Shown piece by piece: positions 13,212 to 14,886 of a DNA stretch of 64,000 bases. The stretch spans positions 62,001 to 126,000 of the forward strand of contig CALVEC010000004.1 of NCBI GenBank assembly GCA_944326475.1, given 5' to 3'. Made by a program: the position numbers and the translations under genes. This DNA is from Candidatus Gastranaerophilales bacterium. GTDB taxonomy: Bacteria > Cyanobacteriota > Vampirovibrionia > Gastranaerophilales > Gastranaerophilaceae. Under the pieces are notes generated by a model. That model had not been told where the DNA came from. It saw nothing but the letters and a program-made list of their open reading frames with translations, and ran no database searches. Position 1 is the stretch's first letter. Each line of letters begins with the position of its first letter.

Positions 13212-13245
13212 AAAAGACCTTATCAAATTGATAAGGTCTTTTTTA
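13212..13245. terminator. Bidirectional terminator between fusA and the ATP-grasp gene
   Basis: Long near-perfect stem AAAAGACCTTATCAA / TTGATAAGGTCTTTT with T runs on both strands. Its right edge overlaps the stop codon of the converging ATP-grasp gene. Confidence 0.9.
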
Positions 13246-14169
13246 TTCTTTTAACAGTAAATTAACAATGCTTTCACTTATTGGATAATTGCAGCATTCT
13301 TCATCATACAAAAATACAGGAGTTGGATTTGCTTCAAAAAACACGTATTCGCCTGATGGTGTTCTTTTCATATCTATGCCCGAAAAAACTAGCCCGAGAA
13401 TATCGTTTATTTTAAAACAGTCTTCAATTACTGACTCTTCAAGTTTTATTGGAATACGTTTTGCATTATTCTCTGCTCTGAAGTCTATAGTCTTTGCGTT
13501 TATTTCTAATGCGTATATATCTTTATCAACAATGTATGCTCGTATATCCGTACCTTCGATTAGTTCCTGTGCTGTCACGGGTGAATTGGACAGTGATGCA
13601 AGATTTTCTGCGGTCAATTTGTCATCGGTTAAGATTGCTGTATTTGCCCAGCCTCTTACCGGTTTGTATATGACTTTTTTATTGTTTTTTTCATAAAAGT
13701 CGATTAATTCATCCGGATCATTTGTTATAATTGATTCAGGTATTCTAATGTTGTTTTGTTTCATTAATTTTAATTGGTAACCTTTGTATTTGTGCATTTC
13801 TACGGATTCATACGGATTTACCTGACGGCAGTCCAGACATTTTAAAAATGAACCTATTGCTGATTCTATATTCCAGTACACAATTTCCTGTAGTAATCTG
13901 TCTTCTTCAGGCTTAACACGCACACCGTTGCTCCATCTGCGGTAAACAGCATTAATCTCGGAAATGGGAATTTTTAAATTGCCGGAATTTTCTTGAATAT
14001 AACCGCAGGCAGGTGAGTTTGCGTCAAAAGTTATTTTTATTTCATATGGATATTTTGCCGTGTCAAATAGTATAACATGGGCATTTCTTGCAGCAAGTCG
14101 TTTTTGCATATCCATTGAAGATGTATCTTTTTCTGAGCCGATAAGTAAAATATTTTTTCCCATTTTCAT
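13243..14169 (-). CDS. Graspetide (microviridin/marinostatin-type) ATP-grasp macrocyclase
   Basis: 308 residues. Graspetide ligases activate Asp/Glu side chains of a precursor peptide with ATP and close them onto Thr/Ser (esters) or Lys (amides). Family marks seen: VYRRWS at 75-80 (the RR step of MvdC/MvdD-like ligases); VNPYESVEMHKYKGYQLKLM at 117-136, matching the NP..K..QL stretch; lysine in VIYKPVRGWA at 166-175; QELIEGTDIRAYIV (201-214) with DxR at 208-210; and the magnesium set D266 (SGIDMKRTPSGEYVFFE), E279 and N281 (EANPTP). The gene is divergent, across 147 bases, from a precursor whose repeats look like marinostatin cores, which strongly supports the assignment. Only one ligase is present, unlike microviridin loci with two. 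No acetyltransferase, protease or exporter lies adjacent. Alternative starts M1 and M3 cannot be separated. Confidence 0.88.
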   Translation of the reverse strand: MKMGKNILLIGSEKDTSSMDMQKRLAARNAHVILFDTAKYPYEIKITFDANSPACGYIQENSGNLKIPISEINAVYRRWSNGVRVKPEEDRLLQEIVYWNIESAIGSFLKCLDCRQVNPYESVEMHKYKGYQLKLMKQNNIRIPESIITNDPDELIDFYEKNNKKVIYKPVRGWANTAILTDDKLTAENLASLSNSPVTAQELIEGTDIRAYIVDKDIYALEINAKTIDFRAENNAKRIPIKLEESVIEDCFKINDILGLVFSGIDMKRTPSGEYVFFEANPTPVFLYDEECCNYPISESIVNLLLKE

Positions 14170-14316
14170 ATGCTAACTTATTTGTTACTAATTGTAAAGC
14201 CTGAAATGCTTGATATATAAGCAAGAAAAAATTTTTACTACTTTATGCAAAAAAAATCCTAAAGTGATTCAGAAAAATATCCGATATATATAAAGTCATA
14301 CAAACAGGAGAATGAT

Positions 14317-14841
14317 ATGAGTGATTATTTTTTGGATTATGTAAGAGCAAATCAAAGATTGAACTATGCCACAAAAAATCAGGAAAAAGTCGGAAATGAG
14401 GACAACCAGGCAACAACTCTTGCTTATCCAAGTGATGATGCTACCGGTGGGACGCCCACAACGGACAACAAGAATAATGAATTATCAGATATTGAAGTTA
14501 TTTCTGTTAGAGAAGAAATCGCAGAACTTTTAAACGATGTGCTGGAAGCACTGTTTAACTTTTTCAAAGAAAATGATGCTAATACATCGAATAAAGCTGA
14601 AACAAAAGCTTATCCAAGTGATGATGCGATGGGTGCAATGCCTCCTTCCGGAGATATTCACGATACAAAACCAAACGGTCCGGATAACAACTATCAAACT
14701 GATGATAAAAAACCCGCTACCAAAGCATTTCCCAGCGATGATGCAGTAGGATCTATGCCTCCGTCCTTTGGAACCGCAGGAAATTCCGGAATTTCTACAA
14801 TGGCTTATCCAAGTGATGATGCCATAGGCGGTATGCCATAG
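14317..14841 (+). CDS. Multi-core graspetide precursor peptide
   Basis: 174 residues, hydrophilic, no signal peptide. Four near-identical segments T-x-A-[YF]-P-S-D-D-A-x-G-x-[MT]-P occur at residues 34-47, 96-109, 135-148 and 161-174; the last is the exact C terminus. The string TxxYPSD matches the ring-forming heart of microviridins (TxKYPSD) and marinostatin (TMRYPSD), where Thr is esterified to the Asp six residues later. The first 33 residues (MSDYFLDYVRANQRLNYATK...) are the likely leader; the microviridin leader helix PFFARFL is absent. Residues ~56-86 between cores 1 and 2 form a second predicted helix (REEIAELLNDVLEALFNFF) that could be another recognition element. A strong ribosome site AGGAG at 14306-14310 and a terminator follow normal gene layout. 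Confidence 0.88.
   Translation: MSDYFLDYVRANQRLNYATKNQEKVGNEDNQATTLAYPSDDATGGTPTTDNKNNELSDIEVISVREEIAELLNDVLEALFNFFKENDANTSNKAETKAYPSDDAMGAMPPSGDIHDTKPNGPDNNYQTDDKKPATKAFPSDDAVGSMPPSFGTAGNSGISTMAYPSDDAIGGMP
14416..14838 (+). repeat. Four graspetide core repeats inside the precursor gene
   Basis: Cores lie at 14416-14457, 14602-14643, 14719-14760 and 14797-14838. Spacers shrink: 48, 25 and 12 residues. Cores 1, 2 and 4 share identical codons over AYPSDDA; core 3 encodes AFPSDDA with several synonymous changes, so the peptide has been kept while the DNA drifted. The residue after the ring threonine varies: L, K, K, M. Confidence 0.9.
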
Positions 14842-14854
14842 TTAAAGTTTTTTT

Positions 14855-14886
14855 ATACCCGATATGCAAAAGACATATCGGGTATT
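14855..14886 (+). terminator. Terminator of the precursor gene
   Basis: Perfect 12-bp stem ATACCCGATATG / CATATCGGGTAT with a 7-base loop, 13 bases after the precursor stop. The T tract is short (TTATTAT). Confidence 0.75.

Follow-up and report, generated by a model that had tools for sequence, protein, structure and literature searches.

A probable minimal graspetide locus in a Gastranaerophilales bacterium that pairs YPSD-type cores with a ligase on the plesiocin side of the family

The locus and its neighbours

The window, by which we mean the whole 64,000-nucleotide stretch that was analysed, carries two divergent single-gene units between fusA and cobO, a ligase gene on the minus strand and a precursor gene on the plus strand. 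The coordinates, lengths and motifs given for them in the initial annotation proved exact. The features are as follows.

13212 to 13242, no strand assigned: bidirectional terminator-like hairpin in the gap between fusA and the ligase gene
13243 to 14169, minus strand: putative graspetide synthetase (ATP-grasp ligase), 308 aa, ATG start
14317 to 14841, plus strand: precursor protein, 174 aa, four cores; called from the ORF, ribosome-binding site and orthologues
14317 to 14367, plus strand: leader MSDYFLDYVRANQRLNY, in which FLDY fits [FY][VIL]x[FY], a motif common to Vampirovibrionia precursors
14416 to 14448, plus strand: core 1, TLAYPSDDATG, with a Thr before it and Leu after the core Thr
14485 to 14580, plus strand: helical spacer between cores 1 and 2, residues ~57-88 (...SVREEIAELLNDVLEALFNFFKEN...), conserved in the genus
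14602 to 14634, plus strand: core 2, TKAYPSDDAMG, Lys after the Thr
14719 to 14751, plus strand: core 3, TKAFPSDDAVG, Lys after the Thr
14797 to 14829, plus strand: core 4, TMAYPSDDAIG, Met after the Thr
14855 to 14885, plus strand: terminator-like hairpin 3' of the precursor gene

The precursor gene has an AGGAG ribosome-binding site, and the hairpins at the ends of both genes are strong. The flanking genes are mnmG, a prepilin-like gene, fusA, cobO, ilvB, ilvN and a DUF4127 gene; the immediate surroundings are housekeeping. The list of neighbour genes bore out the earlier statement that no dedicated protease, acetyltransferase or exporter lies near the locus, and the description as a minimal graspetide locus made up of a ligase and a multi-core precursor was supported, as was a melainabacterial host (Gastranaerophilales), the nearest MAGs being Candidatus Gastranaerophilales. 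The claim of one ligase stands for the locus and falls for the genome, where a different contig bears another ligase together with a precursor of its own.

The precursor

The four cores begin at precursor residues 34, 96, 135 and 161. The pattern T.A[YF]PSDD occurred four times in the six-frame translation of the window, every time inside the 174-aa precursor, and once in total among 20,000 shuffles of the precursor. A search of the genome for further PSDD precursors returned none. The cores keep T..YPSD, but the microviridin Lys/Arg position is occupied by Ala, and the profile NF033738 matched the precursor at 22.8 bits (E = 1.2e-4), under its cut-off of 26. Three residues after the Ser (i+3), every core has Ala or Gly and no acid. 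The second Asp of the core is invariant, without a conserved partner, and the core Thr is preceded by T, E, A, S or V, with TT in core 1 only. In the window, core 1 (TTLAYPSDDATGG) has the look of an intermediate; the precursor of a related locus (L015) mixes MTMAYPSDSG, ITSMAIGEEGGGG and MQTLAYPEGG.

PFFARFL is absent from the leader of the window precursor (MSDYFLDYVRAN). The motif [FY][VIL]x[FY] was present in 18 of 20 Vampirovibrionia pre-core regions as compared to 1.1 in shuffles (maximum 6 in 2000), a count taken as support and not as proof, the motif having been spotted before testing, the sequences being related and one row being partial. The AF2 model of the precursor (mean pLDDT 52) contained two helices only, at residues 3-25 (leader) and 57-88 (spacer, mid pLDDT ~75-87), and was otherwise mostly disordered. 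Amphipathic-looking helical spacers directly before cores recur in Gastranaerophilales precursors (window 14485-14580, L048, L050 and L002), examples being EIAELLNDVLEALFNFFKEN, EIAELLDKYLKG and PPELQELIDKIKDNP. These segments could be extra docking sites for the ligase.

Co-occurrence in related genomes had been proposed at the outset as a check, and each of the four species of the genus was found to have the ligase and a PSDD precursor at this site, flanked by fusA and cobO; three species have four cores and one has three. Comparison of the window with species BN gave pN values of 0.052 for the cores, 0 for the leading 17 residues and 0.172 for the rest (spacers), with pS ~0.75 in cores and spacers alike. 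The nonsynonymous values against species KF were 0.188, 0.093 and 0.405 for the same three parts. Because nonsynonymous divergence is low in the cores and the leader and higher elsewhere, these are the parts that selection maintains. The residue after the Thr is unchanged, core by core, between the window and BN.

The ligase

The ligase contains the motifs VYRRW, NPYESVEMHKYKGYQL, DIR and EANP. TIGR04185 was the best NCBIfam profile (E = 2.7e-35), and TIGR04187 and TIGR04184 also scored far above the RimK models, all three matches lying under the curated cut-offs; the Pfam domain PF21068 (MvdD pre-ATP-grasp domain) was found above cut-off. A PDB sequence search gave PsnB as the top match (4.5e-26) and MdnC as the next (6.8e-20). 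Fold comparison of the AF2 model (pLDDT 93.5) gave Z values of 29.8 for MdnC, 29.7 for PsnB, 29.2 for AMdnB, 28.5 for MdnB, 27.8 for CdnC, 27.7 for PruB and 24.2 for RimK. Residues K169, Q201, R210, D229, R231, D266, E279 and N281 are invariant in all graspetide ligases compared, position 129 is K or R across them, and the ATP-grasp and core-contact residues (K, Q, R, DxR, D, ExN) are intact in the window's enzyme. An identity as RimK, LysX or glutathione synthetase was ruled out, the graspetide ligases being closer in sequence and fold; the profile search proposed in the initial annotation, together with the PDB and fold comparisons, excluded the RimK or glutathione-synthetase clade that was named there as the refuting outcome. 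Judged by sequence, AlphaFold fold and conserved catalytic residues, the 308-aa protein is very likely a graspetide synthetase, and the 174-aa protein is very likely a multi-core graspetide precursor.

Eleven positions (E88, L93, W99, N100, Y128, W174, R238, F278, T283, V285 and D289) are fixed in the clade of YPSD-type ligases and differ in nearly all other ligases, and the subclade is marked by KPVRG[W]A and YWN. W174, directly after the KPVRG loop, corresponds to Gly in every TTxAxGEE and PsnB ligase compared, and to Phe, Leu or Ile in microviridin ligases, where the alignment is less certain. The microviridin ligases have a long K-x-L insert, in contrast to the KPVRGWA loop seen here. N100 stands where every other ligase compared has an acid, and F278, T283, V285 and D289 flank E279 and N281, the metal-binding residues of ATP-grasp enzymes. 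The eleven positions are candidates for core recognition.

Proposed product and its function

Taking these data together, we think it probable that the two genes form a minimal graspetide (omega-ester peptide) system that makes a Thr-Asp ring in each core and yields a multi-headed serine-protease inhibitor. For the chemistry and topology of the rings, the target, and processing and export, we infer the following. The ligase would recognise the N-terminal leader of the precursor (YFLDY) and, in an ATP-dependent step, phosphorylate an Asp in each T-x-A-[YF]-P-S-D-D core; the core Thr would attack the activated Asp to give a macrolactone in each of the four cores, with 18 Da lost per ring. The most likely ring would link the Thr with the first of the two Asp residues (i to i+6), a spacing that matches the first lactone of microviridin and marinostatin, and some cores may gain a second ring. 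One Thr-Asp ester per core is predicted because the acid partner of the Ser in marinostatin is missing: with Ala or Gly at i+3, the second ring of marinostatin (Ser to Asp, i+3) would be impossible. From the residue before the Thr, the outer ring of plesiocin would be possible only in core 1 and perhaps core 4. The predicted minimum is one ring per core (-72 Da overall).

The locked loop would present the residue after the Thr (Leu, Lys, Lys and Met) as its reactive site, and the product would have chymotrypsin/elastase-like, trypsin-like and subtilisin-like heads. Our best guess for the function is a multi-headed serine-protease inhibitor, and the variable residue after the Thr, at the specificity position of microviridins, points to it. 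The corresponding position 5 of microviridins occupies the S1 pocket and sets protease specificity (PMC7823629), and all graspetides characterised by 2022 were reported as protease inhibitors (PMC8939145). The active form could be one uncleaved protein or released pieces, and the four products per precursor given in the initial annotation are only a possible outcome. Cleavage may not be needed, because the modified microviridin B precursor, leader included, is an inhibitor of elastase (PMC11672978). A bicyclic microviridin is ~100-fold weaker than the tricyclic form (PMC11672978), and since the Ser ring would be impossible here, the single-ring loops could be weak inhibitors.

No match to the C39 peptidase (PF03412) was obtained in the window's own genome, which is 98.65% complete (control positive in 8 of 14), and within the genus PF03412 matched in one genome only (G002). 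C39/GG-type maturation was set aside on this result. C39 genes typically lie outside graspetide loci (Makarova et al., PMC8939145), so the missing C39 gene is not decisive. The precursor has no apparent signal peptide, and no exporter was found among the neighbour genes of the locus and no C39 peptidase in the genome, all of which counts against an inhibitor that has to reach its protease.

A rival reading is a stapled structural or surface protein that is never cut, its loops cross-linked by the ligase, with a mechanical or adhesive role. The 400-500 aa precursors of relatives, the fusion of cores to DUF3060/RTX-like repeats in L016, the helical spacers between cores and the lack of a peptidase in the locus and of C39 in the genome are all in keeping with such a protein. 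Yet the only place at which the cores vary is the one that governs protease specificity in microviridins, the modelled precursor of the window is largely disordered, and a signal peptide is not apparent in it; we consider the structural role unlikely.

Placement of the ligase among graspetide synthetases

In a 93-row tree, the ligases of the window's genus formed one clade with L022, L023 and L124 (support 100/99). This YPSD clade fell on the PsnB side, among ligases from non-photosynthetic cyanobacteria, cyanobacteria and planctomycetes, with MdnB, MdnC, AMdnB and CdnC beyond a long branch (100/100). In a 40-row tree that lacked the intermediate ligases, a joint clade with the microviridin ligases was not rejected (p = 0.457). 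When the tree was enlarged with MvdC/MvdD ligases from cyanobacteria and a third group of NPNGQW type, the joint clade was rejected (AU p = 7e-8), and the YPSD ligases as first branch of the PsnB side were not (p = 0.159). Direct microviridin descent of the ligase was ruled out by this result, and kinship with the microviridin ligases is excluded under the enlarged-tree model.

A true microviridin or marinostatin pathway would have a ligase of MvdC/MdnC descent that sets Thr-Asp and Ser-Asp rings on released peptides. The T..YPSD core, the NF033738 match just under cut-off, TIGR04185 as best NCBIfam model and MdnC as top fold match (tied with PsnB) argue for it, as does a sister locus (L023, TAKFPSDNE cores) whose precursor scored 61.4 bits with the NCBI microviridin model (cut-off 26); the ligase of that locus is itself on the PsnB side. 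Against these stand the well-supported PsnB-side placement and the rejection of the joint clade, the lack of PFFARFL and of an acid at i+3 of the Ser, which leaves no acceptor for a Ser ring, and the KPVRGWA loop in place of the long K-x-L insert. Such a pathway is thus improbable, and the kinship with microviridin and marinostatin that the initial annotation implied did not hold.

Another ATP-grasp reaction, e.g. RimK-like addition of a free amino acid to acidic residues, would share the superfold and explain the weak RimK-family model matches, but it is very improbable, as the graspetide ligases match far better in sequence, fold and tree, and the co-conserved Thr-Asp spacing of the cores fits known lactone rings. 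A relative with a broken ligase and no adjacent precursor (L129) and the patchy presence in the family could speak for a locus that is decaying or silent and has ceased to yield its product. That reading is just as hard to credit, as the locus is intact in each of the four species of the genus, its cores and leader are under purifying selection, and the ribosome-binding site and terminators are good.

The enzyme of this graspetide system is of another kind than is usual for its loop sequence. Most likely, as far as sequence can tell, the locus is a YPSD-core variant on the plesiocin side, with predicted chemistry and probably a multi-headed protease inhibitor as product. Tentatively, a plesiocin-type ligase lineage might have evolved the YPSD core independently (or alone kept it), with its active site re-tuned at W99, N100, W174, F278, T283, V285 and D289, and in gut melainabacteria it would make protease inhibitors that stay uncleaved and have four heads of one ring each; the microviridin loop would then be convergent on a different enzyme line.

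Comparison with known systems

The system resembles that of plesiocin and its ligase PsnB in the best PDB sequence match, the PsnB-side position in the tree, the single ligase, the multi-core precursor and a short hydrophobic leader motif. The leader motif of plesiocin is LFIEDL, and LFIRDL is present in L090. The T-x-A-[YF]-P-S-D-D cores differ from those of plesiocin in a spacing one residue longer, in Asp for Glu and in an outer Thr in core 1 only, and the ligase differs at the 11 subclade-specific positions. TTxxxxEE is reportedly the plesiocin pattern (group 2 in the grouping of Lee et al.), and the window cores do not have it. An NHLM/C39 peptidase transporter is frequent in group 2, common but not strictly defining (PMC13097080), and with no PF03412 this plesiocin-typical transporter was not found in the window's genome.

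Marinostatin and microviridin (group 1; MvdC/MvdD, MdnB/MdnC) share with the window T..YPSD, the i to i+6 Thr-Asp spacing and the superfold. They differ in ligase clade, in the PFFARFL leader, in Lys where the window has Ala and in the acid at i+3 of the Ser, and their second ligase, acetyltransferase and transporter are all missing at this locus. In the multi-core microviridin system AMdnA/AMdnC, several YPSD-type cores likewise lie on one precursor, and the single ligase AMdnC works on them distributively; its ligase and leader, however, are of the microviridin clade and the AMdnA cores have the full acid set (PMC5934393). Long precursors with repeated core motifs are also known from RODEO groups 34/35, and group 35 loci consist of synthetase and precursor only (PMC13097080). 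This likeness is by description; the main text of that paper, supplement aside, does not name melainabacteria.

A YPSD loop usually comes with a ligase of the microviridin clade; here the two are separated, and the natural pair with its 11 candidate residues lets one ask whether core or ligase sets the ring pattern. Many two-gene graspetide loci are present in the non-photosynthetic cyanobacteria of the gut, and in these loci the apparent reactive-site residue varies from core to core, a ready candidate set of multi-target protease inhibitors from the animal gut. We found no report of graspetides from these bacteria in the papers searched, supplements aside.

Related loci

A scan of GTDB species genomes gave 80 loci. 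Some match was found in 72 of the 382 genomes of the class, and in at least 32 of these it was strong (best E of 1e-60 or lower). Presence is patchy across the family, the flanks of the loci of related Gastranaerophilales are mostly housekeeping genes too, and no relatives were found in the viral contigs searched. Homologous ligases in Vampirovibrionia, in Nostocales and other cyanobacteria and in planctomycetes adjoin precursors with TT-x-A-x-G-E-E-G-G repeats, for which NCBIfam has no model. These repeats follow the plesiocin pattern TTxxxxEE. Across 217 TT-x-A-x-GEE cores from three groups, the flanks are nearly fixed and the residue after TT is widely variable.

The second ligase of the window's own genome, at the start of contig C2, is 40% identical to the window's. 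Its locus (L002 1-1652; L133 1976-6670) has a divergent precursor with a helix and YTTxAVGEEGG repeats that runs off the contig, and TolC-like, MarR, HlyD and MFS efflux genes lie beside it. At the end of contig C20 (L128 1513-1689), LSVQQFIEMIQNYQSTTTKAIGEEGG repeats run off the end beside a miaB-like gene. These may be the other (3') end of the precursor on C2, in which case the two contigs would be joined.

The YPSD-clade ligase of L129 (4721-6400) is broken, its N-terminal part lying in another frame. No core-bearing precursor was found in the surroundings of L022 or L129, and in L129 ligase and precursor seem to have been lost together. No core-bearing ORF was found beside the ligases of four loci from related members of the order (L008, L009, L029 and L030), possibly orphan ligases that act on distant precursors.

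The Vampirovibrio precursor (L023 2-379; L130 5979-6357) has 22-aa repeats, QT[RAL]K[FA]PSDNESG[NS]LPP, and its gene precedes that of the ligase, both in the same orientation. Two neighbouring ligases, with a large protein near each, were seen in L016 (2070-3563) and L017 (2576-3376), and the DUF3060/RTX-like repeats of L016 are fused to TTMADGEEDDGG cores. Planctomycete-type precursors (L094 4379-4957, L085 6169-6867, L087 4415-5215 and L080), one of which comes from a MAG with the label Rhizobium, carry an HPF leader, then a twin-arginine-like signal (TRRSLFGRLLAGAAAA) and then TTxAxGEEGG cores, hinting at Tat export of the finished product. A cyanobacterial MvdC-type locus (L151 1216-1488) combines a PFFVRYLE leader with a TMAYPSDSDTADGG core that is marinostatin-like, with Ala for Lys.
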